Source of the DNA: Cordylochernes scorpioides
Lineage: Eukaryota > Arthropoda > Arachnida > Pseudoscorpiones > Chernetidae
Assembly (NCBI GenBank): GCA_030710605.1
Contig: CP092877.1
Location: forward strand, 70,763,662-70,827,661
DNA length: 64,000 nt
Direction: 5' to 3'
In this document: piece after piece, positions 15,459 to 44,659 of the stretch
How positions within the stretch are numbered: the stretch's first letter is position 1
Layout of the letters: every line of letters begins with the position of its first letter
Position numbers and translations under genes: made by a program
Notes under the pieces: model-generated
Seen by the model: the letters and a program-made list of their open reading frames with translations, nothing else
Told to the model about the DNA's origin: nothing
Databases searched by the model: none

Positions 15459-16003
15459 TATCTTACAATATAGGAATAAAAAATAACTCCGAAAAACATT
15501 TTAAAACATTTCGGAGGATATTTCTCCTTCAGCACCAAATAAGAGATATGATGATAAAACTACAATCAGTTTTATGGCCCACAGAGTGAACCAATATGTA
15601 AATATGTCAACCACGTGCCTATATGACAGTATATGAATATTTCAGTTCTGTGAGTTCAGTATATATTTATGTTCACAATCAGGAGGTTTGTAACATTTGG
15701 GAAAGTTAAGGTGCTCCGCTGACTTTTGTCATATGGCTTTGGGAATTTTGGCACTCCATATTATAGTAAAGCATGAGCCTTCATATATATGGTATCATTG
15801 AAGTTATATGTAAGCTGTATTATAAGATAGCTGATATAATTTAACCAATATTTTTGTGTTTGAGGGTTGATAAATAATGGTGTGCGTTGTAAATTTTCTC
15901 TTGAACTTCCAGACAAATATAAACTTGAAGTAAATCCCCACAATATAAGCATGCAATGTACACCGAGAGTAGACAACAATAGAAAACGTAACAACAATTA
16001 GAT

Positions 16004-19462: not shown

Positions 19463-19595
19463 ACTATTATAGACGCGTATGATTCTTTTTAAAAATAAAC
19501 AATTTCTGCTGCCCTTACTGTATTAATTTTTCCATTGCAGTAAGGACAGTAGAAATTGTTTATTTTTAAAAAGAATCATACGCGTCTATAATAGT
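19463..19595. repeat. Foldback element with 58-bp arms
   Basis: The left arm starts ACTATTATAGACGCGTATGA and the right arm ends with its complement, TCATACGCGTCTATAATAGT. The arms match nearly throughout and enclose about 16 nt (19,521-19,536). The inner part CTTACTG/CAGTAAGGACAGTAGAAA is shared with foldbacks near 57,299-57,480 and 57,925, defining a family. It is non-coding and its copy number suggests a mobile element. Confidence 0.85.
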
Positions 19596-20108: not shown

Positions 20109-20113
20109 AGGAT
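20109..20113. repeat. BEL target-site duplication, left copy
   Basis: AGGAT immediately precedes the 5' LTR and is repeated at 38,535-38,539 immediately after the 3' LTR. A 5-bp duplication is typical of BEL/Pao integration. The empty site would join the sequence before 20,114 to 38,540. Confidence 0.93.
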
Positions 20114-20906
20114 TGTTAAAACTATTTTACCGTTCTTTTACTTTGTACATAGAATGAAGATCTTAGGTGAAGGGAGACAACGAGCAAGACATCTATATCT
20201 ATAGATAGCCCCAGCTTGGACCGACCGAGGGCAAAGGTCGGCGTGGGCGGAGACGACGGAGCGTCATGTTACATTCTTTTTTTGGTCAGTTGGCAGGATT
20301 CCCTTGTTAGAAGCAGAGGGGAAAGTTGAGTTCCCTTGCCAGACGGAGAGACGTCTAAAAGCTATCCTGCAAGCAGCGTCTTGTGGAAGGAAAGACGTCA
20401 AGCTATCCTGCAAGCAGCGTCTTGTGGAAGGAAAGACGTCAAGCTATCCTGCAAGCAGCGTCTTGTGGACGGAGAGAACGCATTGGAGTATCCCTCAAGC
20501 AGCAACTTGAGAGCGGAAAAGACACTTAGACAACCAACGAGTCGCGACAATTGGACATCGCACAAGACAAGCCAAGCCAAGCCTGCGACGGTGCTGCCAC
20601 GAGGTACTGTGTAAACAAACGCTCGACACCCCCCCGCCATTTATTTTTGTCTTCCTTCCCTAAGACTACTTTAATTTTACTTTACTTTTTTGCTTAACCT
20701 TTTTTATCTAGTTTTTTAGCTCTGTTTTAATCTTTAAATACAACCATAATTCTATATATATATAAGTGTAATAATTTTTATCCCTTTTGTTTTTAATTTT
20801 TTAAAATAAATCCTTTTATTATACTGTGTTTCTGTGCATTTATTCCCCCCATTGTTTTTCCTTTCAGTCGATCACCATTTATTTTTTTTTTAAACGAACA
20901 CGAACA
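20114..20906 (+). repeat. BEL 5' LTR with 41-bp tandem repeats
   Basis: The LTR begins TGTTAAAACTATTTTACC and ends CACGAACA (793 bp). It contains three tandem 41-bp units from 20,360, each reading AGCTATCCTGCAAGCAGCG followed by CTTGTGGAAGGAAAGACGTC or a variant. GACGTC recurs at their joints and in the sequence just upstream, so the array may be a promoter or enhancer module. ORFs across the repeats are artefacts. The sequence after the LTR, TTTTGGTGAGCCGGACGTG, is the expected position of the tRNA primer-binding site. Confidence 0.95.
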
Positions 20907-20942
20907 TTTTGGTGAGCCGGACGTGATCGATTTAAAGGAAAT

Positions 20943-23900
20943 ATGGAGGAGATGGATGCACTTAAAAAGCGCAGAAAAGCCATAAGAGGTACTTTCACTA
21001 GAATTATTAATGAAATAAATGGGGAATTTGAAAAGTCTCAAATTGATAGGAATGATATTTATTCTAAGTTTAATAGACTAGAGTCTTATTACACGAAACT
21101 TGTAGATCTAAACGAAAAATATCAGGCTTTATTGGTAGTGAAAGAAGGGATTACAGAGGAAAGTATTGATAGGGAATGGCAAGAATGCGATAAATATGAA
21201 GAGGAAAAGTTTGATATTCAACAGAAAGTCAGTGTATTACGGAATCCCGATAAAGAGGAAACAATCCCGATTGCTAGCGAGGACACTGTAATAAATGTGA
21301 AATTACCAGAGTTAGCCCTAAAAAGCTATGATGGCTCTCTGGAATGTTGGTTGTCTTGGTGGGCGCAGTTTTCGAAAATTCACGAAAATAAGAATTTATC
21401 CGATAGCGACCGGTTTTTATATTTGCGTCAAGCAATTGTACCAAATTCAGAAGCCTATCGTGTTGTAGCAAGCTATCCCGTTACAGGCGCCAACTATGTT
21501 TTGGCAGTACAAGCCCTACAGGAGCGATTCGGTGACCCGAATATACTGACAGAACTATATGTCAGACGTCTATTGAATTCGGTTATATCTAATGTAAAGA
21601 AAGAAAATAGAAATTTAAGCAGTCTGTACGACGAACTGAGCAGTCACCTCCGGTCGTTAGAGACATTGGGCATTGATCCCCAGTTGTCGGGTATTTTTTT
21701 ATATCCTCTTGTCGAGTCTTCATTACCTTCGGATATTTTGAAAATATGGCACAGGCATCCTTCTTCGGGTTATGGTATGGAGTTAGCAAAACGGGAAGAG
21801 TCAGATAAAGGGGTTGGAGGAGCTCAAGAAAGGCTAAGGTTATTATTGGACTTTCTAAAAGCCGAAGTAAGGAGTGCTCAACGGCTGAAATTTGTGGAAA
21901 AAGGCTTTAGGCAGGAGGAACCCTATAAAAGGTCTTACAATGATGGGACCAGAACAAGGAGCAATTTCAGACCCGCCACTGTGTCTAGTCTGTTCGGAGG
22001 GCGAACTAATATAAAATGCTTCTTTTGTGAAAGAACAAATCATGCGAGTCATCAATGCCGCTCCATAATGAAAATGTCTCCGGGAGAGAGAAATGATAAA
22101 ATACGTAGTGCCCATCTATGTTTCAAATGCTTAAGAAAGGGACACATACAGAGTCAGTGCCGAGAACAATTGGAGTGCAAAAACTGTGGGAGAAACCACT
22201 TGGACGTTTTATGTGAAGGAAATTCTTCTAACCGGCTAACGAAACCAGGAAGAGAAAATCTAAAAGAAAATGCACCTGAACCCATTGCATCGCTTTCTAG
22301 TCAAGCCTGCACAGGTCAAGTCTTGCTGATGACCACGGTAGCACTGTTAAGAGGCCCAAATGCCTCTAGAAGGGTTAGAATTCTCCTCGACAGTGGAAGT
22401 CAGTTTTCGTATATCAAACAGTCGTTAGTCTGGAGTATAGGATTAGAAAGAAAAGGCGAAATAACTATAGCTAAAAGTCTTTTTGGAGGTAATAAGATTG
22501 GTGAAGAAAAGCACGGTAAATTTATGTTAGAATTAGAGAATTTAGGTAATAAAAGAGATGTGATCCATATTGAGGCGCTGGATCAACGTAAAATTTGCGA
22601 CGCCATACCACCTTTGCCAAAAGGAGACTGGTTAGAAAAATTGAAGATTAAGGGCATAATATTGTCTCAGGACAATTTTAAAGGACAAGAGATTGACATA
22701 TTGATTGGTGCTAACTATCTAGGTATGATTTTGACAGGAAAAATAGTTCAAGTTGAAGCAGATTTAACTGCGGTGGAAACGAAATTAGGTTGGACACTAA
22801 TGGGCAATTCGCCAATTATTGATAGCAATGACAATGTGCAGCAGACTTTGAATCTGCTAACAACGCGAGGCGATTTAAAGGATTTGTGGGATCTAGAAGT
22901 ACTAGGCATTAGGGATCCTGTTGAAACTTGCTCCAAAGAGACCAGATACCAGGAAATAAAAGAAAAGTTTATAACAAAAATTCAAAGACAAAGTGATCAG
23001 AGATATTCTGTAGGTCTACCTTGGAAGGTAGAAAAGGAGTCAATCCCCAGCAATCTTGACATAGCGATAAAAAGGTTAGATATAAGCACTAAGAAAATGA
23101 CCTCTCAGAATAAGTTGACCGAATATAGTCAGATCTTTAGAGACTGGCTGACTGAAGGACTCATTGAAAGAGTCGAGGAAAATCCTCTCGAGAGAAGAGG
23201 CTACTATTTACCTCACCGCCCTGTGTACAAGATGGAATCTAAAACGACGCCCATACGTCCGGTTTTCGATGCTTCTTGTCTAGGCCATAATGGACTATCT
23301 TTGAATCAATGTTTAGAAAAGGGACCGAATTTATTGGAAAGAATCCCTGAAATGATGATAAGATTTCGGGAAAATAAATTTGGAGTCACGGCAGATATAA
23401 GAAAAGCATTCCAGATGGTGGCGATTGAAGAATCTGAACGGAACTACCTTAGATTCCTTTGGTGGGAAAAGGAGAGCGATAGAGAACTAATAGCTTACAG
23501 GCATAAGAGACTTGTATTTGGCTTAAACTGCAGTCCTTTTGTGCTGAACGCCGTAATAGAATACCACCTTCAATCAATAAGAGGCCCACTTGTTCAATGG
23601 GCAAAGATTTTAGCTCAATCCTTCTACATGGACAATTGTATTACCTCGCTGGAAACCAAGCAGGAAGTGCAGGAATTTCAAAAGGCCGCAATTGAAATTA
23701 TGGACAGGGCTAAAATGGACTTATGAGAGTGGGAATATTCTCTGGAGGAAAACCCTGAAGAGGGGACTTGTACAAAAATATTGGGTGTTGTTTGGAATAA
23801 AATGGAAGATTCATTAAAATGCGAACTCCCTGACAATTTGAGTCTTCAAACCAAATTAACGAAAAGGCTGGTACTGTCCATGGTTCAGCGGATATTTGAT

Positions 23901-26713
23901 CCACTTGGATTTTGCGCTCCAGTATTCTTGCCACCAAAGTTGTTACTGCAGCGATCATGGGGGCTGAAACTAGGTTGGGATACACCTCTACCCGAAAGTA
24001 TGGCCCAGGAATTTCGAACCTGGTTGGATCAAATAAAATTAATAGAGTTAATAAAGATACCGAGATATATGTGGAATGATCTCATTTTCCCTACAGAAGT
24101 TCATATCTTTTGTGACGCTAGTCAAAGAGGCTATGGAGCTGTAGCCTATTTAAGGAGCGAAACGGGACGAGAAAATACTCTAACTTTGATTTGGAGCAAA
24201 GTCAGATTAGCTCCTATGAAGAGTATTACGATCCCTCGCTTGGAATTAATGGCCATGGTACTAGGAGCTAGACTAGCCAATGCAATCCAAGCTGCCTTGA
24301 AGAGAAAATGTGAAACAACTCTTTGGTCTGACTCTACTACCGCGCTAAGTTGGATAAAGAAAGAAATTGAGTGGAGAGTTTTCGTGAGAAACCGAGTCAG
24401 AGAAATACAGGCCACTACCAATTTGAACGATTGGAGGTTCGTTCCTAGTCAGTTGAACCCGGCCGATCTTCTGTCTCGAGGTTGCCCTCCAAGCCAGTTT
24501 GTGCAAAGCAGATGGTGGGAGGGCCCCGAATGGTTGAAAAAACCTAAAGAATTCTGGCCCAATTCAGAGTTCTCGATAAATCCAAAAGAAATAAAGGTTG
24601 AAGAAAACATTATGAAAACCAACATTAATTTGAACATCGATTATAAAGACTGGTTACTGACAAGGAGGTCTAATTACTCTCTCAATATCAGGGTAATGTC
24701 CTATGTTTTAAGATTTTTAGGGAAACTTAAAAAACAGTCAACTGAAACAGGACCTTTGAAAGTTTCAGAATTAGACTTGGCAGAAAAAAAGCGTATCCGA
24801 ATGATTCAGGAGAAAGTCTCCATAGAGAAATCGAATGCAACCAAGAGTTTAAAAATATTAAAAAACACTGACGGACTTTGGTGTGTAGAAAGCAAACTTT
24901 TACATGGACAGGTCCCAGAAGAATTTAAAACTCCTATCATTCTACCAGGCGACCATCCCTTCGTAGAGCAACTTATATGGGAAGTGCACCTGAAGAATGG
25001 ACATGTAGGCGTGCAATTCATTTTATCAAAGCTGAGAGAGAAATTTTGGATAATCAGGGGAAGGAAAACGATAAGGAAAATTATCAGTAAGTGCATTGTT
25101 TGCAAGAGACTTAAAGAAAAGTCTCTGCAAAGACCAATGGCAGCTTTGCCAGAAAACAGAATTGGACTGGGCAAACCCTTCCAAGTTACAGGAGTTGATT
25201 TATTAGGCCCTCTTCATTTGAAAGAAGGTGGGAAAGTGTGGGTAGCCGCCTTTACTTGCGCCGTCTATCGCGCTATTCATCTGGAGTTCATGGTAATCAT
25301 GGTAAACGGTTTGCGGATTTCGACAAATTAGAAAGAAGGAATCATATATCGCCGCAACTCTTTTTATTATTATAGCGGTTAAGGAAGCTTTCGGGCAAGC
25401 CCTTCTTCAGCTAATTATATTGTACAATTAAAGAGAGATTATATATCGTTTTTAATATAAATCAAAATAAACGAAAAGAAATTTACCACGCCCCTATCGC
25501 CCTCGTTTCAATAGCACCGCGTGGCCACGTTATGTCTGATCCTAACTTCAAATGTAATATGGTACAAAAATATCTTAAAAGAAAGTTATGTAATTGAATA
25601 AATATAAAGAATCAACTATAAACAGTTCAAAGGATTTAGTGGAGATTTTTAGGATAGAAGGGGAACGTACTGTGATGGCAACTGTATACTTTTGTTTAAT
25701 GGTTTAGGGTGCTTCATGGTTTCTATTGCTTCAAGAATGAGTCTTTGGGTTTTAGTTTTGGCATTTGTATGGAGGATTCTGGTATTATTGAAGTTGTTCA
25801 TCTGGAGTTGTTGAAGAGTTTAGAGACAGGAGTCTTCATGATGGCCCTCCATAGATTTATTTGTCGGAGAGGGCGCCCCGAGAAAATATATAGCGACAAT
25901 GGCACCAATTTCGCAAAACTTAATAGAATATTCAAGAGATTGGATTGGACTAGAATTGAAAGGGAAACCTCAATTAAAAGGATACAATGGATTTTTATCC
26001 CTCCTTCTGCTCCTTGGTGGGGAGGATTTTGGGAAAGAATGGTTAGGACAATAAAGGAAATGTTGATAAAGATGCTAGGTCACAGGAAGCTGAAATATGT
26101 ACAACTGCAGACTGCCCTTTGTGAAATCGAATCTATCATTAATAATCGACCCCTCACTTATGTCTCTGAAGACGACAATGATCTAAAACCGTTAACTCCT
26201 AATGAGTTTTTACAAAATGGTCCAGAGTCTAGCTTTCCTGAATTTGAAAATTTAAAGCCAGAAATGTTGCACACTAGATACAGAGAGTTAGGTCAACTGA
26301 AGAGAGAATTGAAGCAGAGATTCTTAAAGGAATATTTAGGCGCGCTGATTCAGAAATCCGAAAATATTGATAGAAGACAGTTGAAAGTAGGAGACGTTGT
26401 ACTGATCGGGCAAGAAAATCTTAAAAGAATGTTTTGGCCTAAAGGGCGAATAGTAAATCTCATACCAGGAAAAGATGGAATAGTGAGAGTGGCCCATGTT
26501 AAAACATCCACAGGAACCTTGATCAGGGCTCTACAACGCTTACACCCTCTTGAAATATCCTCGAATGTTAAGACGATTCAAAAGGACAATTCAAATACCG
26601 AACCCCAATCTGAAGCATTTTTAGGAAATAGGCCCAATATTGAATCCAGGGACTCTAGAAATAGATATGGTAGGGTAATCAGAAAGCCTGCTAGGTATGA
26701 CTCGAAGGACTAG
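20943..26713 (+). pseudogene. BEL/Pao gag-pol polyprotein, one nonsense codon and one insertion
   Basis: The frame starts with the ATG at 20,943, 36 bp past the LTR. Visible domains: a gag region (residues about 1-350, with the DUF1759-like LPELALKSYDGSLECW near 118); three zinc knuckles at about 359-424 (CFFCERTNHASHQC, CFKCLRKGHIQSQC, CKNCGRNHLDVLC); an aspartic protease with LLDSGS near 481; reverse transcriptase with RPVFDASC and the active-site variant YMDN near 895; RNase H (FCDAS, PRLELMAM, WSDST, 24,110-24,350); and integrase with an HHCC finger (24,990-25,110) and D-D-E residues in VTGVDLLG, YSDNGTNF and FWERM. TGA at 23,724-23,726 sits where an ordinary codon is expected (CGA to TGA would explain it). 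A 521-bp insertion at 25,289 splits integrase. Removing it restores phase exactly, giving about 1,749 codons. Confidence 0.96.
25289..25796. mobile_element. Insertion in BEL integrase flanked by 13-bp repeats
   Basis: TTCATCTGGAGTT occurs at 25,276-25,288 and again at 25,797-25,809, and the integrase frame continues perfectly from one copy to the other. The net insertion is therefore 521 bp with a 13-bp target duplication. The insert has no ORF and no clear poly(A) tail. Its minus strand carries CTGAAGA (25,410-25,404), a GGGC/GCCC stem and CGAAA (25,393-25,389), the order of a hammerhead ribozyme core as known from Penelope-like elements. A truncated retroelement or SINE is likely; the class is unresolved. 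Confidence 0.85.
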
Positions 26714-26875
26714 TGAAAGTACCTGTAGAAAAAAAAGGTGTAATATGTGTATTATTTTATGTGTATTTTATGTAATGTAATAGGCATATCTACTCTTGTG
26801 TGTATTGTGTATATATATGCTCTTTTGTCTTATACTTAATTTTGACTTCTTTCGGAGCAAAATTATGTGGGAGAA

Positions 26876-27521
26876 TGTTAAAACTATTTTACCGTTCTTT
26901 TACTTTGTACATAGAATGAAGATCTTAGGTGAAGGGAGACAACGAGCAAGACATCTATATCTATAGATAGCCCCAGCTTGGACCGACCGAGGGCAAAGGT
27001 CGGCGTGGGCGGAGACGACGGAGCGTCATGTTACATTCTTTTTTTGGTCAGTTGGCAGGATTCCCTTGTTAGAAGCGGAGGGGAAAGTTGAGTTCCCTTG
27101 CCAGACGGAGAGACGTCTAAAAGCTATCCTGCAAGCAGCGTCTTGTGGAAGGAAAGACGTCAAGCTATCCTGCAAGCAGCGTCTTGTGGAAGGAAAGACG
27201 TCAACTATCCTGCAAGCAGCGTCTTGTGGACGGAGAGAACGCATTGGAGTATCCCTCAAGCAGCAACTTGAGAGCGGAAAAGACACTTAGACAACCAACG
27301 AGTCGCGACAATTGGACATCGCACAAGACAAGCCAAGCCAAGCCAAGCCTGCGACGGTGCTGCCACGAGGTACTGTGTAAACAAACGCTCGACACCCCCC
27401 CGCCATTTATTTTTGTCTTCCTTCCCTAAGACTACTTTAATTTTACTTTACTTTTTTTGCTTAACCTTTTTTATCTAGTTTTTTAGCTCTGTTTTAATCT
27501 TTAAATACAACCATAATTCTA
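26876..27521 (+). repeat. BEL 3' LTR, left part
   Basis: The first 646 bp of the 3' LTR, from TGTTAAAACTATTTTACC to CATAATTCTA, where the DNA transposon enters at a TA. Differences from the 5' LTR in this part are one A/G substitution, a 1-bp deletion, an extra AGCCA unit and one extra T. Confidence 0.96.
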
Positions 27522-27939
27522 CAGGGTGATCCAAAAGTCCCGCACAACTTTAAAAATTAATAACTCCGCGAATAATTGCGCTAGAGAAATGCGGTAAACA
27601 CCATTGTGTTCAGGATGCAATGGGATTTTTTATGGCAAATAATGAAAAATTCGAAATTGATTTTAGTTACAACTTTATTCACTAGATGGCGCTCTACCAG
27701 AATCAGAGATTCAGCGGCCAAATTGTTTGATAAATTGAAAAATATAACTGAACGACACGTATTTTTCCTTTTTGAATACCAGGAAAGAACCCTAATAATA
27801 TCAAATGATAAATTAATAAAACACCATTTCGCCAAAAGTTAGAAGAATTGGTTGACGATTTTTAAATACAATCTGAGATATGTAAAATAGGTATATGCAA
27901 ATTAAAACATGTAGCAAAAAATATTTATATTTTAGATGG
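27522..27939 (+). repeat. Left terminal inverted repeat, about 418 bp
   Basis: Matches the inverse of 37,961-38,380 with roughly 13 mismatches, fading out after TGTAGCAAAAA and TTTTAGATG. It contains TAGATGGCGCT (27,683) and a 78-codon ORF from the ATG at 27,606 that is also open in the other TIR. Confidence 0.95.
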
Positions 27940-28629
27940 AGTTTTGTGAAATAAATTGAATGTTTGAAAATAACTACTGATATCAATACACGATTTTTGA
28001 AATGTTAATATAGTACCAAAATTTATGATGGCACTACTAATAGGATTTCGTGCTATAAGGAATGTATAGTTTCTTGACTAAAATTGTCGACACTTGACTA
28101 TTTAACTGGATATTTGTCATGATCCAAATATGAAATATAGAGGGGAGTGACAAAATATATTTGTCGTACTTTATTCCATATATCCTATGGGTTTGTCAAA
28201 TGTTATCATTGTTTATTATACTGTATATAATTTTGAAAATGTATCCCCTCAAAAAAAAATCATTTTTAAATCGACCTTTTTACGTTGAAAAACGTGGTAG
28301 TAAAATCATTTTGTATTATTTTTTTGCGCAAAACATCTAAAGTTGGGGGGGGGGGGATACAGAGATTATTCCTTATGCTATTTCTTCGAAAAGCGATAAA
28401 CTAAACATAAGGGGTAAAATTGTGTATACCAGTGTTATTCGAGAAGTTATAACACTTTGGCCTGCACGACATAATATAAAATGTGGGCCAATGACAAACA
28501 AAAAAAAATACTGTTTACAGAAAAAAAAAAGAGTCAAGATGTGAGGACAGCATTTATTATTCCCATAACCCAAAACAAAGAGCTGCAAAATATAACACAT
28601 GAGGTAACTGCCTTCTCTCTTGTATTAGG

Positions 28630-29713
28630 TCACAATCCTTGCTCAATGTGGCGCCCTTCATTCTCAAACACCGCCTGCAGACGATAGATGACAGAATGGT
28701 CACAATTAAATAGTTGAAATTTATAGAAGCATTCAACATGGCCAATGTGGTAGGCCGGCATCGATAAAAACGCGACTTAATGTACCCCATAACCGAAATT
28801 GTAAGGCGTCAAGTCTGGTGATATTGGGGGCCACTGGTATATAAAGTGGCGACTTATCAACGAATTTCACCGAACGTATCCTTCAGCAATTGTTTGGAAC
28901 CGCGGGAGATATGAGGAGGTCCTCCATCTTGCATGAATGTTATTTCGCTTAGAGCTTGTCTGCCCTGCAATATGGGAATACCCTTTTCTCTCAAAAGTTG
29001 AACATAACGTTCACCAGTTACAAAAACGGTTTTAAAAGTTCTTCCATTGATTTTTTCAAAGAAAAATGGCCCAATAATAAAAGAAGAAATGAACCCACAC
29101 AAAACTGTAACTCTGTGCTGATGAAGTGGTATTTCTGTAAAAATCATAGGGTTTTCTGTTGCCAAAATGAGGCAGTTTTGAATGTTAAATTCTCCCTTTA
29201 GATAAAAGTGAGCATCATCTGTTCTTAGAACATTTGGCAGCCAGTTTTCATCAATATCAATTTGCCGGAAAACCCATGCAGCGAATTCTTGACGCTTCTC
29301 AAAATCGCTGACTTTCAACTCGTGGAAACTTTGAATTTTGTTAGGATATTTTTATAGAAAAATTCTAAATGTGTGTTCTCTCCAAACTGTTCCATACGAA
29401 ATCCTCGTTTGTCGAGAATCTTATCTAGCACTTACTTCTCCATACGTGAATAACGTTTCAATAGCTTCAGCATTCTGCAAAACCGTAACAGCCACTGACT
29501 TGCATGTCGATGGTCTTCCACTCCGAGGTTTTGCTTCCAGAGATCCAGTTTCCTCAAAACTTTTAATCAATCGCTTTAGAGAGTAGCAACTCATTGGTCC
29601 TTTACCGCTTCGAATATCTTTAAAGAACGAAACGCTCGTAAAGCTTCAGTGGCAGATTCTGAATCACAATTAAAACAATTCACCAAGAGTGCTCTATCCT
29701 GTAGTGACGGCAT
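28630..29713 (-). pseudogene. Tc1/mariner-superfamily transposase, decayed
   Basis: The start codon at 29,713 opens MPSLQDRALLVNCF. Next come a DUF4817-type helix-turn-helix (ALRAFRSL, FEETGSLEAKPRSGRPS) and an IS630-like catalytic domain with LRTDDAHFYLKGEFN (first Asp), FMQDGGPPHI (second Asp) and WPPISPDLTPYNFG (third Asp). The frame ends near HIEQGL at 28,630. Spacing between the second and third Asp is about 36 residues here, against about 41 in relatives I recall, so a few residues may be lost. At least two consecutive stops (29 kb end of the catalytic domain, near 28,855) and several frameshifts inactivate it. The longest open part is 28,857-29,318. A LINE insertion separates the gene from its own upstream TIR. 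Confidence 0.92.
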
Positions 29714-29718
29714 TCCAG

Positions 29719-31787
29719 GGGGAAGGGGAGAAGTTCGACCACACCTCCTTGCGGTCCCCCCTGCTAATGCTACCGCGTCCGGGGTAACCGCCGCGTCAGG
29801 AGCTGCAGCTCGAGCTCATGATGAGAAATCTACTACGAGGACACAAATCAATCTACTACAACTCAATATAAATGGTACCCAGAGGAAAATAAAGAGCTGA
29901 CTTGTCTTTTCTGTGACAACAATGTACATATTAATTGTCCTCAGGAGACAAAATTGAATCAGAATCTGAGATTCAATATCAAAGATTATACAACACTACG
30001 AAAGGACAGACCGGGAAAATTCGGAGGACGACTTTCCGTTTTGATTAAAACTCTAGAAATCAAATTTAAGGAAATCGCCTATAATCAGAGTAAGCCTAGA
30101 GAAGGCACGACAGAAGCTCAGGCAATAGAAATCTATCTTACAGATAAAACAATTCCAATCATAAATGTTTATCACCACGATAATACTAGCATCAATATAG
30201 GGCTGATAGAGACATTAAGTGAAGCGTCTTCGGATATCGCAATCATACTTGGTGATTTTAACGCCGAAAGCCCAACTTGGGGATCACCTGTCCAGGATAA
30301 CAAAGGTCAGCAGGTTGAGGACATGCTAACCGACCTCGACCTTACGCCGTTAAATAACGACAAGAACACCTATATATCCAAGTCCACAGGCACATAATCC
30401 GCAATAGACATCACAGCGATAAATTACAACATCGCACCCACATCACAATGGAAAATTCTGAAAAGTGCAATCAGTGACCACAGACCAATTTTAACAACCC
30501 TAAAATTCAAAATTGAGAAGTTTCAACAGAATAAAAGAACACTGGAAAAATATTTACAGAAAAGCTTGAAGAACTGTGCAACGAACTGTGCAATCACAGA
30601 ACGATTGACAAAAACTCGGTAAAAATCTCTTTGAACATATCCAAAGCTGCAAAAGTATCGATACCTAGAGGTAGACGTAAAGACCTGTGAATACTTTACT
30701 GGAAGGACCACAATATCGAGGCAATGATTGCAGAGAGAGACAATAAAAATGAACTTCTTAAAACAAATAAAACAGAAGAAATCATAAAGGAACTCATTGA
30801 AATTAGTCACAAAATAGAACAAGAAATTTGGATATTCAAACAAGAAAAATGGGCAGAATTCTGCAAAGAAAATGAATCCAAAAAAGGAAAGCTATCACTG
30901 GAATATAATTAGTGTTATAAAACTCAAAACCAACACTAATTCTCCAATACTCTAACCGATATGAACAGCGAGAACGAACAAACAGATGGCTGACATAATT
31001 TCTGAATATCTTTCAAGCACTTCCAGACTCAGCTATACGAATGAAGGCAGGACTCTAAAAAATAATATAAACAAGTTAGTTAAACAAGCAAGAAATTACC
31101 ATCAACAAGATATTTACTCGAGAGACTTCACACTGAATGAGCTAAATTCATCAATAGGAAAGTTAAATCCAAGATGTCACCTGGAGATGCTCTAATCTTT
31201 GGTCAAATGATTAAACACTTTGGAGACGAAGCTAAAAATCAACTCCTACGAATACTGAAGATTTCATGGCAAACTGGTAAACTAACAAAGAATTGGAAGA
31301 TATCAATTATAGTGCCAATACTGAAACCAAACAAAGATGCTAAGGAATGCAAGAACTATTGGCCAATTGCTCTTACAAGCATACTTTGTAAAATAACAGA
31401 ATGAATTATCCACTCTAGGCTCATAGTCTGGCTCACTAACAATAATAAAATAAACTTCTACCAAACTGCCTAAAGATCCAGACACTGTACAACTGATAAA
31501 CTGTTCTACTTCTGTCACTCAATAATAGATTTCTAGGAAAAACCGCCAAAGGAAACAACGGCAGTATTCCTGGATATGACCTCAGCTTTTGTTCGAGTGT
31601 AGAAATTATTTGAAAGGATGCACAACATCGGAGTAAGAGGAAAAATTCAATCTGGATTGCAGACTTCTTAAGGGGAAGAAGGATAAAGGTTCGGGTCAAT
31701 GGAACATTTTCCAAGGACCGAAGAACATGGGCTGTTATACCTCAGGGATCTGTGCTCAGTCCTCTACTCTTCTCGCTATATATTAAC
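29719..31787 (+). pseudogene. Jockey-like ORF2, 5' part: endonuclease and start of RT
   Basis: The region begins GC-rich (an Ala-rich leader), then TQINLLQLNINGTQRKI, the usual start of an AP endonuclease domain (about 29,845). The endonuclease shows the ILGDFNAESPTWGS signature at about 30,250 and SDHRPIL at about 30,472. The reverse transcriptase starts at about 31,130 (NELNSSIGKLN, then SPGDALIFGQM, then YWPIALTSILCK at about 31,360). Many stops and frameshifts interrupt it, and the coding sequence breaks off at the gypsy target site in what was an LYIN-type motif just before the YADD box. Confidence 0.88.
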
Positions 31788-31926
31788 TGTTGTTTATGTA
31801 AATAGATGAATATTATTTGTATTATTTAAAGCCTCATTTTATAAAAATATATGTATATATAAATTGGACATTTGTTGTTTGCCATGGTCAATTTTGAGCT
31901 CTTGTACGTCTAATTACGACACAACA
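31788..31926 (+). repeat. Gypsy 5' LTR (139 bp)
   Basis: It differs from the 3' LTR at roughly 16-18 of 139 aligned positions by eye and lacks about 32 bp (a GGCCAAACGAAAAGAATAAG-containing stretch) present in the 3' LTR. LTRs are identical at insertion, so this implies considerable age. Confidence 0.93.
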
Positions 31927-32121
31927 AAAGTGGCGACGAGGATGCGCGATCTACAGAGCCAGTAAAAAGCTGAGGAAAACGGCGTCTATGCAAGTATAAC
32001 AACTACATCTTTTAAACAAATCTGACTCTCGGATTATGGAGAGGAAAAATAAGAAAATGGGTTAAGATTACATATTTTAAACTATCTGAATCAAGAAAAC
32101 AAAGGAGTAGAAAAGATCAGC

Positions 32122-32762
32122 ATGACAAGTTCAAAGTTAATAATACCTTTTAGATGCTATAGCCCAGTGGAGGATACCTTCGATCTTTTTGTACAAAAAT
32201 TCGAGGCTTTCTTTTTGGCATCTGAAAGAGGAGATTAAAGTGCTGATTTTTACCTTGCTACCAGATTATGAAACTTTGAAACTGGGAAACGACATTTTCT
32301 TCCTGGTCTAATGAAAGATCAACACTATGATACTATCATTCAAAGAATTAAGCTGCATATAAATCCAAGTGATGCAGATTTCTAAAGAGAATTCAACAGG
32401 AAGGAGAATCAATTCCGGAATATCTTAGAGAATTGAAACGTTTAGCAATAAATTGTAAGTTCGGCGATATGCTGGGAACCATGATGCGAGACCGTTTTGT
32501 GGCTGGAATCAAGTTGGAAAGCCTTGCAGTGGCGATCTCTTCGAACTGGCGGAGATATAAATACAAGAGAATTACAAGATAAATTAGTGGCCAAGATATC
32601 CCCTGTGAATGGAAAGGATAAAAAGGGCGAGTACAATAATAGTACGGCGCAGTATAGGCCTTTCAGGCAAAGGGGAGAAATAATGTGTTATAGATGTGGT
32701 GAAAGACATTCACACGTGGCCTCTGTTTGCCCTCGTAGAACAAAGACTTGTTTTAAAATGTA
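32122..32762 (+). pseudogene. Gypsy gag remnant with zinc knuckle
   Basis: From the ATG at 32,122 the trace runs through a capsid-like region with several frame changes. ESIPEYLRELKRLAINC at about 32,405 and FGDMLGTMMRDRFVAGI at about 32,463 are characteristic of gypsy gag proteins. A CCHC-type knuckle, CYRCGERHSHVASVC (about 32,686-32,730), follows, with one extra residue before the His. A second knuckle is decayed. Confidence 0.8.
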
Positions 32763-32805
32763 AAAAACTGGGTCATTTAAGTAGGGTCTGGAAAGCTAGT
32801 AAAAA

Positions 32806-35762
32806 ATGTGGAGATGTAAATTTGTACAAAAGGACTCTATATATTCTATACAGGGCGAAACTGATGACACAATAAATTTAACAGTAGATGAATATTCTTT
32901 GTGCTTTACAATAGATACAGGAAGTCCAGTTACGTTAATACCTAAATATATTTATAAGATTTATTGGCAAGGTAAAAAATTATTTCCAACAAATTTGAGA
33001 TTAAAATCCTTTTGTGGTAAACCAATAGAGATCATAGGTCAAATAAATGTTTTTGAAAAAGAAGCCTACCAATATTTACGATTAATAGTTGTAAATGAAA
33101 AATCCAGGTGATTTTGTTAGAAAGAGAATGTCTTAAACAGTTAAAAAAACTTGATTATTCTAGACTGAATATACTGAATCTAATAGAAATAGTTTGATTG
33201 ATAGATATGCAGATTTGTTTAACAAAGATTTGGGCTGTCTAAAGGATGTTAAAATAAATTTTAATTTAAAAAAGGATGTGACTCCTGAGTTTTGTAAGGC
33301 CAGAAGTTTACCTTTCTCTCTAAAAAACAAAGTAGAGAATGAAATTGATCGCTTAGTGAATTCTTGCATTTTATAACCCGTAGTTCATGCATATTGGACC
33401 GTCCAATAGTACCGGTATTAAAAAAGGATGGTAGTGTAAGTATATGTGGTGATTTCAGATGTACAGCTAATAAAGCAATAGAATTAGATAAATATCCCAT
33501 TCCATCGATCGATGAGATCTTTTCAAAATTATCTACAAGCACCGTACTTTCGAACCTAGACCTATCACAGGCTTACTTACAAGTAATGTTAGCGGAAGAA
33601 GCCAAAGCTGTTGTTGATATAAACACAACAAAGAGGTTGTTTTCTTATAAAAGACGACCATATGACGTAGCGGTAGCACCAAATAAATTTCAGAGGATTA
33701 TGGAAGGTCCATTTGCTGATTTGCCAGGTGTGGCCTGCTACATAGATAATATATCGGTTGCAGGAAAAGACTTTGAAGATCATGAACAAAAGTTGGATCT
33801 ATTGTTTAGATGATTGCTAGAAAAAGGTTTAAAGTTAAACAGATATAAATGTAAATTTAAAAAGAAATCGGTGAAATATTTAGGATTTAAAATGGATAAA
33901 TATGGACTGCATCCCTTATAAAATAAAATCAAAGCAGTGATAGAGGCGCCTGAATCTAAAGAATGTTTCGCAATTAAGATCTTTCATAGGACTCTTAATT
34001 TATTATCATAGATTCAAAAAGAATATAGCAAACATTTTAGCGCTATTCTATCAACTTTTGAATAAAAATTGTAGATGGAATTTTGGACGAAAGAATATTA
34101 ATTGTTATTTTTAAAATATCAATTGTTATTTTAAAAATGTAAATCATTATTAATGGACTATGGACTAGGCGTAATTCTGATTCATAGAAATGATAGAAAC
34201 GAAGAATGCCCTATAGCTTTTGCTTCTAGAACATTAACTGAAGCGGAAAAAGGTTTCTCTCAACTAGAAAATAAAGCGTCGAGCATAACTTTTGGCGTTG
34301 GGAAATTCAGACAATACTTACTGGTACGAAAATTTGTATTGGTCACAGACAAGCGACCCTTAATTCATATATTTTCACCTCATAAACCAATTCCCATATG
34401 TGCATCATCCAGAATTAAAAGATGGTCCTTATAATTAGCTGCATTTAATTATTTTGTGGAATTTCGAAAAACTAGTGATAATTCCAATGTTGATGCATTG
34501 TCACGTCTTCCCTTAGAATCGAGTGTCAGGGAGTCTCTTGATGAAGACCAGGTACTTCTTCTCAGGAAGTTGAATAAGGTACCGTTCTCTTTTATGGAGG
34601 TGGTATATGAGACGCCCCAAGATAAAATACTGTCTATAGTATTAAGGAATGTTAGAGAAGGCAACTGTGTGTGTGGAAATTCACAAGGGTACCGAGAGAA
34701 AACCCACTAGCTCCTCATTATAAGATCAATGAGGAACTAAGTTTGGAGTTTGGTTGTCTTCAATGGCGTGAAAGAGTGGTAATTCCCCAAAAATTAAGAT
34801 CTTTAATTTTAAATGACTTGCATGAAATACACATGGAAATTGTTAAAATGAAGATGATTGCCATAAGGTATTTTCTGGTGGCCAGGCATAGAGAGTAACA
34901 TCGAGGAGTTAACTAGAGAATGTAGAGTATGCCAAGAATCGGCAACCATGCCCCCGGCTACCATCTCGGAATGGACTTGGCCCGAAAAACCGTGGCATCG
35001 ACTTCAGCTTGATCTAGCGGGTCCGTTCATGGGAAGAATGTTTTTGGTTCTCGTGGACGCATACTCAAAGTGGATATAAATTTGTATAATTAAAGATATT
35101 ACCAGCAAAACGATTATAAATCATCTTAGAGAAATATTTGCCAGATTTGGAATGCCCTAATATTTGGTTACAGATAACGGAAGACAGTTTGTCTCCGGTG
35201 AATTCGAACAATTTACCAAAATGAATGGTATACGGCACACTAAGACCAGTCCGTATAATCCTAGTACAAATGGTTTAGCTGAGAGATATGTAAGAGAGCT
35301 TAAAAACCTTTTGAGAAAGAATAATGGGAAGGATGATTTAGAGACGAATCTACAAAGATTCCTATTTGCTCATAGAGCATTCCCCTTAACTGTAATAAAG
35401 GAATTCCCCCGCGGAACTGCTAATGAAGAGAGGTTTAAGATCAAAATTCTCGAATTTAATACCAAGATGGGAAATCCGCGAGAGGTATTTCATGAGGCCG
35501 TGAGAAGGCAGGAGCAGTTTACTACAGGTTGCGAGGTTTATTTCCGCAACTATGCAACTGGACCTAAACGGTAAAAAGGTACCATTTTGAAATTATTGAG
35601 CTACCGTCACTACCTTATAAGTTGCGAGGGCGTCGTGTATAAGAGGCATATCAATCAATTGCGACCTGCGAGAAAGAAACAAGTGGAGACAAGAAATTTG
35701 ATACTTCCTCGAACATCAGGAGAGAAGCCTGTAGGTGGAAGTCAGAAATAAAGTGAAGAGGA
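32806..35762 (+). pseudogene. Gypsy pol remnant: PR, RT, RNase H, integrase
   Basis: The protease has FTIDTGSPVTLIP at about 32,910. The reverse transcriptase (33,190-33,815) shows PVLKKDGSVSICGDFR, YPIPSIDEIFSKL, LDLSQAYLQV and the catalytic box as YIDN at 33,739. RNase H remnants lie at 34,153-34,434 (DYGLGVILIH, TEAEKGFSQLE). Integrase is in pieces: a damaged HHCC finger at about 34,790-34,950 and the core with MVTDNGRQFVSGEF at 35,164 and NPSTNGLAERYVRELK at 35,258. Stops at about 33,376, 33,811, 34,432, 34,898 and 35,158, together with frameshifts, inactivate it. Confidence 0.9.
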
Positions 35763-35789
35763 GGTTCCAGAGGTTACATCAGGAAACAA

Positions 35790-35940
35790 GGAGGAGACTG
35801 CTTCTGTGCACGTACTCTCTTGCACTCCTAGACCAGGGCCTGTTGCTGTGCACGTGCCCTCTTGCACTCCTAAACCGGGGGCTGTCGCTGTGCAAGTGCC
35901 CGTCCGCAGTCCTGGACTTCAGAGAGCCAGGAAACCCCCA
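35790..35940 (+). repeat. Short tandem repeats in the gypsy pol C-terminus
   Basis: Two and a half units of about 42 bp (CTGTGCACGTACTCTCTTGC, then CTGTGCACGTGCCCTCTTGC, then CTGTGCAAGTGCCC) encode a 14-residue repeat of the type VHVLSCTPRPGPVA. It is followed by RKPPDRLEYY and a stop, the usual end of a gypsy polyprotein. The repeat is a local expansion. Confidence 0.7.
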
Positions 35941-35971
35941 GACCGACTGGAGTATTATTAAGGGGGAGATG

Positions 35972-36142
35972 TGTTGTGTATGTGAATAGATGAAGATTAT
36001 TTGCATTCTTTAAAGTCTCATTATGTAAGAATATATGTGTATATAAATTGGACATTTTTTGTTGGCCAAACGAAAAGAATAAGAGCTAAAAAAAGAGTCA
36101 TGGTCAAGTTTGAGTTGTTGTACATCTAATTACGACACAACC
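35972..36142 (+). repeat. Gypsy 3' LTR (171 bp)
   Basis: Begins TGTTGTGTATGTG straight after the polypurine tract and ends ACGACACAACC, followed by the TTAAC duplication. The last base differs from the 5' LTR. Confidence 0.93.
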
Positions 36143-36147
36143 TTAAC

Positions 36148-37796
36148 AACATCCATCCTCACTGAAGACACAAAAGTTGCCTGTTATGCATATTATATAG
36201 CCATATGGCACACAAGTAGCAGTATAGAAATATCAGAAAATACTGAACACATCAATGAGAGGACTGGAGAAGTGGGCAATGAAACTCAAAATGACAATAA
36301 ACCCAATAAACACAAACCTATAGGTCTCCTTCACGGACAGGAAAAAAGGCATGAATATAACTCCAAAATAAGCATAAACAACCATATAATTGATAAAATT
36401 TGATCTCCAAATTACCTAGGTGTGATACCAGAAACCTAAACATTCTGAGAAGGCTATGTGGAACAAATTGGGGAGCAAAACCCAAAATTCTCAGAACAAC
36501 ATATATCACCTTAATAAGGCCAATAATGGCATATGCAACAACTGTTTAGGCTCCCTCAAGTTCATCACTAAAAAGAATACTAGACAGTGTTCAAGCAAAA
36601 CGGCCAAATTAATCACTGGTTCTGTTTCAAATACCAACAATTAGAAAATTCAGAGAATGTGGTCTAGACCTACTTGAAAGCAGAAGACAATTAAAAACCA
36701 TAAAATTCACCAATAGCTTAAAAACTAAATAAACCTTGCACATATCCCATAGAACCTATTTAAACTGGACACAAAAAGAAAGGCTCAAAAAATCTTCAAC
36801 ACTTCAGTACGACAACATTAGAAAGAGCATAAATATGAAACATAATGAATTTCAAATTCGAAAATAACCAATATTTCCTACCCCATTGCCATCAAATGTA
36901 ATCATCAATCTTAACCTGAATTAACCCTGCAATAAAAAAGAGAACAAAAACATACTTGAAAAGAAAGGACTTGACACAATCGTTTTAGGCGATCAGATAA
37001 ATTATTTAACAGCATATACAGACGGATCATCAGACCTTACCATAAGTAATGGAGGGGCTGGAATAAACATAATACTGCAAGATGGAACATACATCAAAAT
37101 CAAAAAAGGAGCAAGAAAGATTTCGTCAAACTTCACTTGTGAACTGACAGCTATCTGGAAAGCTCTTGATGTATGCCTTAACCAACCCTCCCTGCATCAA
37201 GCAGAAGGAATTATAATATACCGTACAACGACTTCATATCCTATCTAGAAGCAATTCAGAAGGGCAATACTATAATCACACAGAAAATACATTCGTTACT
37301 TACTCAACTGATATCATTGGAGAATAGCTGCATTCTAAAATGGATTCCTGCCAGTGTTTGGATCGGGGGTAATGAAATGGCAGTTGAATTTGCAATGGAA
37401 TCCAGAAAGTTGAGCCAAAGGAAAGAACAAATGACATTATTTGACGCTAATGCTTTTTCAAAATACAAGATAATTAAACAAAAAATAAGAAAAGATCAAA
37501 ATGTGAAATAAACTCCGAGAGAAAAATGACAAAACTATAACAAGATTTAGAAAAAAAACATTATAAAGGATGACAATACATCCAGATGGCACAAGAACCT
37601 ATAGAACATGCAACAACTGACCTGGTGTGGAACTAACACCTACCCACATATTCTCATGCCCGCAGCTTTGCAGAAAATTTACATAGATCCAGAGCAGCTG
37701 CTTTACACACCCAAGATAGGGGACAATGCTGCTGCTGCTGTGATAGAGATGCATGGAGACATCTGAGGCTCTTTATTGGACACGACAAAAACAACA
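36148..37796 (+). pseudogene. Jockey-like ORF2, 3' part: RT active site and RNase H
   Basis: Directly after the gypsy element the coding trace resumes with ILTEDTKVACYAYYIAIW at about 36,155; the YADD catalytic box has decayed to YAYY. The thumb and connection region (36,240-36,950) is fragmented. An RNase H1-type domain follows, with AYTDGSSD at 37,014 and CELTAIWKALD at about 37,138. A Cys-rich C-terminal trace (TCNN-type remnant and TPTHIFSCP, 37,610-37,670) ends the ORF. Numerous stop codons mark it as old. Confidence 0.85.
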
Positions 37797-37960
37797 ACGG
37801 CATTCCAGAGTAAAATAAATCATAAGAGATATCATCAGATAAATATTTTTCAAATGAATTAAAATAAATATAATCGATACTGAGAGAGAGTTGAATTTAA
37901 AAAAATATAGAAAATCATTATTTTCGAAATTTAAATAGCTGAGAGGATTCCAGCAAACCG

Positions 37961-38380
37961 CATCTAAAATATCAAATTTTTTTTTTGCTACATGTTTTAA
38001 CTTGCATATACCTATTTTGCATATCTCAGATTGTATTTAAAAATCGTTAACCATTTCTTCTAACTTTTGGTGAAATGGTGTTTTATTAATTTATCATTTG
38101 ATATTATTAGGGTTCTTTCCTGGTATTCAAAAAGGAACAATACGTGTCGTTCAGTTATATTTTTCCATTTATCAAACAATTTGGCCGCTGAATCTCTGAT
38201 TCTGGTACAGCGCCATCTAGCGAATAAAGTTGTAACTAAAATGAATTTCGAATTTTTCATTATTTGCCATAAAAAATCCCATTGCATCCTGAACACAATG
38301 GTGTTTACCGCATTGCTCTAGCGCAAATATTCGCGGAGTTATTAATTTTTAAAGTTGTGCGGGACTTTTGGATCACCCTG
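37961..38380 (-). repeat. Right terminal inverted repeat, about 420 bp
   Basis: Inverse complement of the left TIR. The outermost 50 bp are identical to those of the other end, as expected for intact transposase-binding termini. The equivalent of the TIR ORF lies at 38,060-38,296 on the minus strand. Confidence 0.95.
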
Positions 38381-38382
38381 TA

Positions 38383-38534
38383 TATATATATAAGTGTAAT
38401 AATTTTTATCCCTTTTGTTTTTAATTTTTTAAAATAAATCCTTTTATTATACTGTGTTTCTGTGCATTTATTTCCCCCATTGTTTTTCCTTTCAGTCGAT
38501 CACCATTTATTTTTTTTTTAAACGAACACGAACA
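38383..38534 (+). repeat. BEL 3' LTR, right part
   Basis: Continuation of the 3' LTR after the inserted transposon. The LTR sequence at the insertion point is (TA)6 in the uninterrupted 5' copy and (TA)1 plus (TA)6 around the insert here, so one TA was duplicated. It ends CACGAACA at 38,534, followed by AGGAT. Confidence 0.95.
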
Positions 38535-40797
38535 AGGATAATTGACTCTGTAGAGATCTATGCAACAATCCTGTGTTTGGAAGTACCCTTTAATAATTTG
38601 AATGTTGAAATCTTTATTACTGGTAAAATGTATGGAGAAAATGTAGATTTTTAAGGTTGAAATTCTCTCTTTTTTTTTTTTCTTGATTTACCCTGAAAAC
38701 GAATAGGCCAAATATTATGGAACAAGCCTAAATCAATGTTTAGTTGACTTTCGTTCCACTAGATGGCGGTTTGCTATCTAAAAATGCTCATGTGAGCAGT
38801 CAAGAAAGACCTTTTTTTATATTTTTATTTGTGAATTACTTCTTTTGTTAGCTTATATTTTCTGACTAAAGTCGTACATAATAGATTTATTATATTCAAG
38901 TTTAAAAGGGCGAGTTATCGAGGCAAAAAAAGGGCTTATTTCTTAATACAAACGCTAGGAAATATAACCTGTGGAGTATTGGATCGAAAACCCGCCCATT
39001 TAAATTGTAATAGAAGAAGAAAGGTATCGCCGGTTAATTTCTGAATTTCACATTTTAACCTGGAAAACTTGTTTAAAACACGAACCTCAAAGAGCGTTAC
39101 ATATTCTGACCGAGAAGATGGTTAAACTACGCTGCCTCATTCTTACCATATGACATTAAATGTTTTTCTTTGGTTTAAGAAGTAGAATTCTATCGAAAGT
39201 CGATTGGCTAGCACAGTATTGAATAGATTTTAAAAATGAGATTCAATATTTTAGAATACAGTTTTTTTTTTAATTTTAATAACACGTATAGTGTTTGAAT
39301 TTTATGCTGCTGTTATATACTTGATTGCATGCTGAATTCCTATTATAGGAAAGGATCTTATTTGAAACTTGCTGAATTCATTCGAAAAACAAGATTTGAC
39401 AGATGAGTTTCTTACAGGAGGCATTAAGATTCATATATGGATTTAAAACTAAATTTTTGAGGCCTATCAAACTTGGCGTGTAAAAATAAGGCTGAGGTAA
39501 AAACTTCCAATTATTCATTGATCCAGCCAACAGCTTGGAATTCCTCCATCACAGTTCAGTTAGATTCGGTGTAAACTTTCCGAGACTTCAGCCTGTTGCA
39601 CGTGCGGTCATGAAATTTGATGATATTTAAACAAAAATTATAAATTAGAATTCTCTCTAACGTTTGAAATAAAATTTCTGTTTCAAACTGCTTTAAGCGA
39701 TGAGGTTTATTGAATTTTATGTGTATGTATGACATGCCGAAATGAAGTGGCTTCGCGCATGCGTCGAACTGAATGGTTGTCACCGTTGGCATTGGGAGGT
39801 AGTCACATTCAATTTTAAACATAAGGTATTAGAGCTTTATCTGTATGGAAGAATTCAAACTATTTAGTGCTTTTTTCAAATCAAAATAATGTCCAATTAT
39901 ATATACTTTAATGAGAAAATAATAGGAGAGCCATCATTGGCAAACCCTTCCAGAGGTTTCGCCAGTTGAATCTACCATACAACTTTACCACTGACAAACC
40001 AAGCCTGCCCAATATTTTCTCAGTATGAATTTGTTTAGATTTGAAAACACTAGTTTGTATACTTCCTCACATCTAATATTCACTTTATGCCATTTCAACC
40101 ATATCTGTGAACGATTTCCTTAGTCAATCTCTACAAAGCACAAACTAACAATATTTTCTATGGTCACTTGACGGTGGAAAAAAACTGAAGTGAAGTGAAT
40201 TCTATCTCTTGAGAAATTGCTAGCATTCATCAGTTCAAGGTATACGTGGTGTACACTTTGTAAATCCATTTTATATTTGTTCTCTAGATTACGTTGGCTG
40301 AGGTTTACGAACTTCCGCGGTTTATTGTAGGATTCACCAAGCCATTTGTCATTTTGGAATAAATGTTTGTTTGGCTGTTTTCAATTTTCCGTGAAAAAAT
40401 AATGTCTTCTAAAAAAAAAATTAAAACATTCATTATACGTTCGGTGACGGGGTGGTATTTAAAAAAAAAAACAGATTGTGAGTGGATTATCCAAAATAGA
40501 ATGCTAGCAGAAACAAGAGAGGCCCAACTCTCATATCAACTGATGCGCCAGTCTGATTCTTCTAGGCTTATCTCTACTTATTGTACACTTCTAGCTCACT
40601 TAACGCATTATTTTAAATATTACTTATGAGATACACGCTTATCTTGGATCAAAATTCTCTATTGACAGGATATAGTTCCTAGCAGAGATCTTGTAGAAGA
40701 GGACGGACGATCAGTCACGTCAAAATATTAGAAGATTTTTTTTTAAAAATGTTTTCGAGAAAAGCGTAATTGATGTATCTCATATGGATTGATTTAC

Positions 40798-43340: not shown

Positions 43341-44659
43341 CGAGGTGTGTTCAAAAGGTATCGCGACTTTTGTGTTTTTTCAAAAATTATTTATTTATTC
43401 ATGAATACCTATTTTGTCCCCTTCAAAGTAATCCCCATGAGATATTATACACTTGTGCCAACGGTTTTTCCAATCTTCGAAGCACTTCAAAAAATCATTT
43501 TTAAAATCTTTTTCAGCTCCTTCTTCGATGCCGTCTTTATCTCGTCAAGCGTAGCGTAACGTCGTCCTTTCATGGGCCTCTTCAGTTTAGGGAACAAGAA
43601 AAAGTCACAGGGGGCCAGATCTGGTGAATACGGTGGCTGCGGCATCATTAGTGTGTTGTTTTTGGCCAAAAAGTCGCTCACAAGCAACGATGTGTGAGCA
43701 GGGGCGTTATCGTGGTGCAAAAGCCAATTTTTGTTCTTCCACAAATCCGGGCGTTTCTGGCGGATTGCTTCGCGCAAATTGCGCATAACTTGCAGGTAAT
43801 ATTCCTTATTGACCGTTCTACCCTGTGGCAAGAACTCATGATGCACCACGCCCCTGCAATCGAAGAAAACTGTCAGCAAAACTTTCACATTCGACCGTAC
43901 TTGGCGCGCTTTTTTCGGTCTTGGTTCGTGCGGCAGCTTCCATTGTGATGATTGAGCTTTGGTTTCCACGTCATAACCATAAACCCACGCTTCGTCACCA
44001 GTTACCCTCTGGAGCAAATTTGGGTCGTCGCGGACAGAGTCCAACATCTCATTAGCAATGTTCATGCGATGCTGTTTTTGGTCGCAATTGAGCAATTTTG
44101 GTACGAATTTCGCGGCGACCCGTCTCATGCCCAAATCATTGATAAAAATCGAATGGCACGAGCCAATCGATATGTTTAGGTCCTCAGCAACTTCTCTAAC
44201 GGTGATTCGACGATTGGCCAATATCATTTTCTCCACTTCATTAATTTTTTCGTCTGTTGTTGAAGTGCTCGGGCGTCCGGCACGCTCTTCGTCGTTCACA
44301 TCTTCTCGGCCTTCTGAGAACATTTTGTACCACCGATAAACGTTGCTTCGGTCCAAGGTAGCTTCTCCGTATGCCACAGTCAACATTCGGAATGCATCCG
44401 CGCACTTAATTTCGTTTTTCACACAAAATTTGATACAGGTTCTTTGATCCATTTTTTTTTAATAGGTAAAAATCGAAGACGATCCAAAACACCTGCAAGC
44501 AAAGCAGCTGTCAACAATTAAGTGAACATTCAAAATGGCCGAGCTTGTCGGCATAAGTGAGAGACATGAGTACCAACATAAAGCCACAAAAAGATCGAAA
44601 TTCGAATATACGTAACCCGCGAAAATTCAAAATTCGCGATACTTTTTGAACACACCTCG
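43341..44659 (-). mobile_element. Mariner transposon, nearly intact
   Basis: A 1,319-bp element flanked by duplicated TA. Its 27-bp inverted repeats read CGAGGTGTGTTCAAAAGGTA and TCGCGA at one end and the complement with one mismatch at the other. Size, TIR length and a single intronless ORF on the minus strand are typical of mariner. Nothing is nested inside it. It looks much younger than the composite at 27.5 kb. Confidence 0.97.
43487..44452 (-). CDS. Mariner transposase (DD34D), C-terminus frameshifted
   Basis: 321 codons from the ATG at 44,452 (MDQRTCIKFCVKNEIKCADA), about 120 bp inside the TIR. Residues 1-110 form the paired helix-turn-helix DNA-binding region (YRWYKMFSEGREDV, AGRPSTSTTDEKI). 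The catalytic triad is Asp153 (TGDEAW), Asp248 (LLHHDNAPAHTS) and Asp283 (SPDLAPCDFFLF); 34 residues between the last two give the mariner DD34D signature. The WVPHEL-type linker is present as WKLPHEP. The frame ends at KKILKMIF, but another frame continues at once with the family C-terminus (CFEDWKNRWHKCIISHGDYF) to about 43,400. A one-base change in an A/T run therefore removed about the last 25-30 residues. Activity is doubtful but the rest is intact. Confidence 0.95.
   Translation of the reverse strand: MDQRTCIKFCVKNEIKCADAFRMLTVAYGEATLDRSNVYRWYKMFSEGREDVNDEERAGRPSTSTTDEKINEVEKMILANRRITVREVAEDLNISIGSCHSIFINDLGMRRVAAKFVPKLLNCDQKQHRMNIANEMLDSVRDDPNLLQRVTGDEAWVYGYDVETKAQSSQWKLPHEPRPKKARQVRSNVKVLLTVFFDCRGVVHHEFLPQGRTVNKEYYLQVMRNLREAIRQKRPDLWKNKNWLLHHDNAPAHTSLLVSDFLAKNNTLMMPQPPYSPDLAPCDFFLFPKLKRPMKGRRYATLDEIKTASKKELKKILKMIF

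Follow-up and report, generated by a model that had tools for sequence, protein, structure and literature searches.

A decayed Tc1/mariner-type transposon with two retroelement guests inside the long terminal repeat of a young BEL/Pao element in Cordylochernes scorpioides

The 64,000-nucleotide stretch of the genome of the pseudoscorpion Cordylochernes scorpioides analysed here (contig CP092877.1, assembly GCA_030710605.1; hereafter the window) contains a nest of transposable elements, each lodged inside the next-larger one (Table 1). The outermost is a BEL/Pao retrotransposon (20114-38534 as a whole). A Tc1/mariner-type DNA transposon with terminal inverted repeats (TIRs) of about 420 bp sits at a TA within its 3' long terminal repeat (LTR) and divides it in two. 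Within the transposon lies a long interspersed nuclear element (LINE; full span 29719-37796), and nested in the LINE is a putative gypsy element (full span 31788-36142). The original prediction, a reading made from the letters of the DNA alone, had proposed this order with duplications of TA, 12 bp and 5 bp at the three inner levels, and the matching duplications confirm it. When the undisturbed BEL 5' LTR is compared with the split 3' LTR, the insertion point shows one extra TA and nothing else. The reading frames of the LINE, the gypsy element and the transposase are each broken many times.

Table 1. Nested elements of the window, with positions counted from its first nucleotide
Feature	Position	Strand	Details
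BEL target duplication, left copy	20109..20113	no strand	AGGAT
BEL/Pao 5' LTR	20114..20906	+	793 bp, uninterrupted; empty site for the DNA transposon
BEL/Pao coding region	20943..26713	+	DUF1759, RVT_1, Peptidase_A17, Integrase_H2C2, DUF5641
BEL 3' LTR, portion preceding the DNA transposon	26876..27521	+	
TA target duplication, left copy	27520..27521	no strand	
Composite Tc1/mariner-type element	27522..38380	-	10,859 bp; transposase on minus strand
Left TIR	27522..27941	+	
Broken transposase	28630..29713	-	frameshifts, in-frame stops, third catalytic D to N
LINE target duplication, left copy	29707..29718		ACGGCATTCCAG, 12 bp; overlaps transposase start codon
LINE 5' half	29719..31787	+	endonuclease PF14529; reverse transcriptase by similarity to P0092; many stops
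Gypsy target duplication, left copy	31783..31787		TTAAC
Gypsy 5' LTR	31788..31926	+	139 bp
Gypsy internal region	31927..35971	+	RVT_1 and weak rve remnants; many lesions
Gypsy 3' LTR	35972..36142	+	171 bp
Gypsy target duplication, right copy	36143..36147		TTAAC
LINE 3' half	36148..37796	+	end of reverse transcriptase, RNase H
LINE target duplication, right copy	37797..37808		ACGGCATTCCAG
Right TIR	37958..38380	-	
BEL 3' LTR, portion following the DNA transposon	38381..38534	+	starts with right TA copy
BEL target duplication, right copy	38535..38539		AGGAT

The ages of these elements do not follow the order of their nesting. Between the two BEL LTRs there are 2 substitutions in 793 positions (0.25%; 95% interval 0.03-0.91%), a count that leaves out a third mismatch of the alignment lying outside the LTR, and indels of 1, 5 and 1 bp located in repeats. 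The BEL coding region is young like its LTRs: it is open from 20943 to 23723, contains two long open frames (927 and 516 codons), and carries a single in-frame stop (23724-23726) against about 15.5 expected at the age of the gypsy element, a figure calculated from three pieces totalling 1,730 codons with half the divergence of the gypsy LTRs. The assignment to BEL/Pao is based on matches to PF05380, PF00078, PF17921, PF18701 and PF03564 and on the 5-bp duplication AGGAT; rve_3 falls under its cutoff. In contrast to the BEL pair, the gypsy LTRs differ at 17 of 139 positions (12.2%; 95% interval 7.3-18.9%; 16 mismatches in 138 aligned bases plus one terminal base read from the sequence) and by a 32-bp indel, and the difference from the BEL LTRs is highly significant (Fisher p = 4.9e-13). 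The approximate values first given, about 2 in 790 and about 16-18 in 139, are therefore borne out, and both guests, the LINE and the gypsy element, are older than the BEL insertion that hosts the transposon. They must then have come inside the transposon or have been copied into it later. The TIRs are intermediate, with 14 substitutions in 417 positions (3.4%; 95% interval 1.9-5.6%) up to the inner edge, 13/401 up to column 401 and 16/420 with the last two columns; they also differ by a 3-bp gap, their outermost 53 bp are identical, and no sub-repeats within the TIR rose above shuffled controls.

The LINE is a non-LTR retrotransposon with RNase H, as judged from its APE-like endonuclease, reverse transcriptase, RNase H and target duplication (window pieces together with the relative P0092), and the putative gypsy element is recognised by its LTRs, its TTAAC duplication and RVT_1, with rve and rve_3 under the Pfam cutoffs on the piece tested. 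The transposon that carries them has the TA target duplication and TIRs of the IS630-Tc1-mariner group; the TA duplication does not fit hAT (Ac/Ds), in which the target duplication is 8 bp. Two window pieces of its transposase match no Pfam family at E 0.01, but full-length relatives such as P0011 align with the mariner transposase at 43505-44449 of the window (E = 6.5e-11). P0010, P0011, P0013 and P0014 have the catalytic positions, which we take to be those marked by the familiar mariner motifs. In the window element the transposase start codon falls within the LINE target duplication, frame -3 runs on through about 29430-29330 but contains two in-frame stops, and a motif of the type xDFWLWG (or similar) reads YNFGYG, with N where the third catalytic D would be. 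On its sequence, this transposase is dead, as the original prediction held. Its changes are partly shared: our transposase protein search yielded 90 proteins, of which 56 belong to C. scorpioides and 31 to Trichonephila clavipes, with 3 others. When the 34 proteins from outside C. scorpioides serve as outgroup, 136 columns are conserved between them and the intact-type C. scorpioides copies, and the window departs from this consensus at 21. Of the changed columns, P0001 covers 12 and agrees with the window at 9, while P0003 covers 11 and agrees at 6; their private changes amount to 6/88 and 5/74, respectively. The YNFGYG change is common to the window, P0001 and P0077; across 98 proteins the motif could be read 34 times, with D in 31 and N in three (P0001, P0077, P0069). 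One relative, P0002, is open across most of the transposase and keeps all three catalytic residues, in a gene model that is fused to a Tc1 and terminates early. With its own gene disrupted and a nearly intact relative present, the element probably moved in trans, and a better-preserved relative is a plausible source of the transposase.

Annotated proteins from other loci share the internal edges of the LINE and so point to further copies with these edges. Four of them (P0041, P0078, P0090 and P0097), each on a separate contig of different length, run without interruption across the join between LINE 5' edge and transposase, and P0091, on a fifth contig, crosses the LINE 3' edge. In P0001, which starts in TIR sequence, and in P0073, antisense LINE is joined to transposase, presumably via splicing; such fusions carry less weight, since the annotation also contains chimeric models (P0006, and P0060 of Trichonephila). 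P0094 and P0095 (LINE 3' end in ambiguous contexts) and P0096 (a distant reverse transcriptase) were not counted as edges. The residues of the sister loci differ from those of the window, so these are distinct loci. An exact TIR-tip pattern had no matches in viral contigs, a search that may leave out the window's own genome.

We propose that the decayed composite moved recently, as one 10.9-kb unit, into the young BEL LTR, and we consider this the best explanation of the whole and a very probable one. A DUF4817-type element of the Tc1/mariner superfamily, about 2.8 kb when empty, would have been the starting carrier; a LINE would have inserted near its transposase start codon, and a gypsy element would later have inserted into the LINE. 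The unit would have decayed while retaining its TIRs of about 420 bp, and the transposase of a better-preserved relative would then have cut and pasted the entire 10.9 kb into a TA of the recently inserted BEL LTR. The structure, the exact TA footprint, the age inversion, the LINE edges shared with proteins of other loci and the dead transposase are established. The inversion and the footprint are the observations that bear on the predicted one-unit transposition; a direct move of the full 10.9 kb, the trans helper and a gypsy passenger in further copies are what we infer.

Several observations weigh against this proposal. The TIRs are less diverged than the LTRs of the gypsy guest (p = 3.4e-4 for 14/417, and 3e-4 to 7e-4 over the three counts), a pattern not expected from plain decay. 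A carrier can be no younger than its guest; homogenisation or repair is therefore implied, most likely between the two TIRs or from other copies, respectively. All evidence on other copies comes from annotated proteins and not from DNA. The original prediction called for a search for both internal junctions elsewhere; the LINE edges were found, but gypsy edges appear in none of the 7 + 7 proteins from two protein searches, and the LINE proteins that cover the gypsy site (P0092, P0093, P0098) are all gypsy-free, so the case for a gypsy element on board is made by the age argument in the window copy alone. Five sister proteins on five contigs (P0041, P0055, P0078, P0090, P0097) begin with nearly identical stretches of about 22 residues, probably an exon, that have no match in the window above shuffles (tblastn and ungapped scan, with local alignment to the element); the sisters are therefore not identical to the window copy. 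In P0055 this stretch is followed by transposase without a LINE edge, and it may represent other cargo. Finally, some shared residues say little about subtype: P0069 has the N but keeps FWLW without the FGYG change, so that N alone can arise separately, and the L in VTVLCGF and the D in TDD are so widespread among the 56 C. scorpioides proteins (18 and 14, respectively) that they do not mark the composite.

The low TIR divergence is also the main support for a different sequence of events, in which a young, shorter copy entered the BEL LTR and afterwards exchanged its interior for that of an old composite elsewhere, through TIR-primed gap repair or gene conversion. The identical outer 53 bp of the TIRs and the existence of a relative with an open transposase frame fit such a course. 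We nonetheless judge it unlikely: the TIRs exceed the BEL LTRs in divergence (p = 1.6e-5, with a significant difference on each of the three counts), which means that the shell is not fresh either, and an additional conversion step of 10 kb would be required. It is likewise improbable that the LINE is site-specific for the transposon, so that its edges at other loci would stem from parallel insertions rather than from a single composite that was copied. The identical LINE 5' edge at four loci is what such specificity would produce; P0092, P0093 and P0098 carry no transposase part, and no LINE copy is shown to lie outside the transposon. On the other side, P0041 and P0097 cover the diagnostic VTVLQNAEA residues and are of the same subtype as the window (subtype could not be scored in P0078, which is in another frame, or in P0090, which does not cover the residues), and the age inversion in the window copy would stand regardless.

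LTR gene conversion occurs in principle, and homogenisation of the BEL LTRs, with an old BEL element and guests arriving afterwards in ordinary order, had been named beforehand as the outcome that would overturn the inversion. The inversion survives: conversion of the LTRs does not explain the youth of BEL, because its coding region, with its two long open frames and one stop where about 15.5 are expected, is also young, and both halves of the 3' LTR match the 5' LTR even though the insert splits them. We reject this account as very improbable. That the nest is an assembly chimera or a product of collapsed haplotypes is scarcely credible and is also rejected. In its favour is the sole N run of the 64-kb window, a 100-N gap between near-duplicates at 8130-8229; against it, 20111-38534 is free of N runs, and four nested sets of duplications (AGGAT, TA, ACGGCATTCCAG and TTAAC) match.

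Beyond the proposed recent move of the composite into the BEL LTR, a wider picture is plausible but tentative. The cargo-moving lineage defined by its long TIRs, as the original prediction had it, goes further than the evidence. A transposase-dead carrier lineage with long, homogenised TIRs may long have spread the LINE composite, whose passengers are now fossils, with sub-lineages carrying different extra passengers: gypsy here, and the shared sequence in the five sister loci.

Other features of the window are given here for completeness. The young BEL element has a further guest, a 510-bp insertion in its integrase region (25287-25796) bordered by the 11-bp direct repeat TTCATCTGGAG (25276-25286 and 25797-25807). 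Two near-copies, with blocks 96% and 90% identical, meet at the 100-N gap within 3575-12408 and are probably an uncollapsed haplotype or a false assembly duplication. An open mariner transposase of 321 aa (Transposase_1, HTH_48) occupies 43487-44452, and P0006, P0073, P0078 and P0079 contain stretches 92-98% identical to it over their main matches. Remnants of a Tigger/CENP-B-type transposase at 13863-14565 are 97-99% identical to P0066 with the middle part missing. The Tigger-like gene at 14206-14556 agrees with that protein in 116 of 117 residues, one of the protein matches that point to C. scorpioides. Four stretches (15269-15473, 19463-19595, 51150-51446 and 57297-57482) are palindromic or fold-back elements, each matching itself in reverse complement, a dispersed short repeat of about 100-220 bp occurs in seven places (6048, 10298, 13662, 17378, 41731, 58704 and 62262), and ARAGORN found no tRNA genes in the window.

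The principle of retroelement cargo in a DNA transposon is already known. Maize Ds elements carry LTR retrotransposons, and a Ds/Ac macrotransposon is reported to have mobilised up to 100 kb, mostly nested retrotransposons (PMC3260210). The window element resembles these in being a non-autonomous cut-and-paste carrier with retroelement cargo and, by inference here, transposase in trans; unlike Ds, a hAT element of a plant, it has a TA target, TIRs of about 420 bp and a gypsy nested in a LINE, and it belongs to an animal. MER6/MER6A is a mariner-derived miniature inverted-repeat transposable element of 865 bp with 24-bp TIRs, within which a V-SINE (a short interspersed nuclear element) was amplified as a passenger (PMC6887750). 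It is likewise a Tc1/mariner-type carrier of a retroelement, but the window element is 10.9 kb long and holds two multi-kb retroelements beside its decayed transposase gene. Sleeping Beauty vectors, also of Tc1/mariner type, are described as moving 10-18 kb of cargo with falling efficiency, but these are engineered vectors with a hyperactive transposase (PMC4229213). Complete VS (Visitor) elements of bees are reported to measure 1024-2258 bp (PMC8472432). In the DD41D/Visitor group the last two catalytic residues are spaced similarly, but relatives of the window element have 42 residues between them, in the 8 of 9 proteins that could be measured (the ninth went unmatched). Judged on spacing alone, off by one from 41, DD41D/Visitor was rejected as a firm family name. 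The titles and abstract starts of the searched open-licence literature contained no Tc1/mariner element with LINE and LTR cargo, which is not a claim of absence from print; within that literature the carrier type, the size and the double cargo are new.

Our findings provide a natural case in which nesting order cannot be used as age order, a rule that is applied to date transposon insertions. They also suggest that some 8 kb of dead, unrelated retroelement DNA can be moved by a Tc1/mariner-type element of an animal, one whose family has many annotated copies. Comparison of the sister copies makes both trans-mobilisation and TIR homogenisation directly testable.

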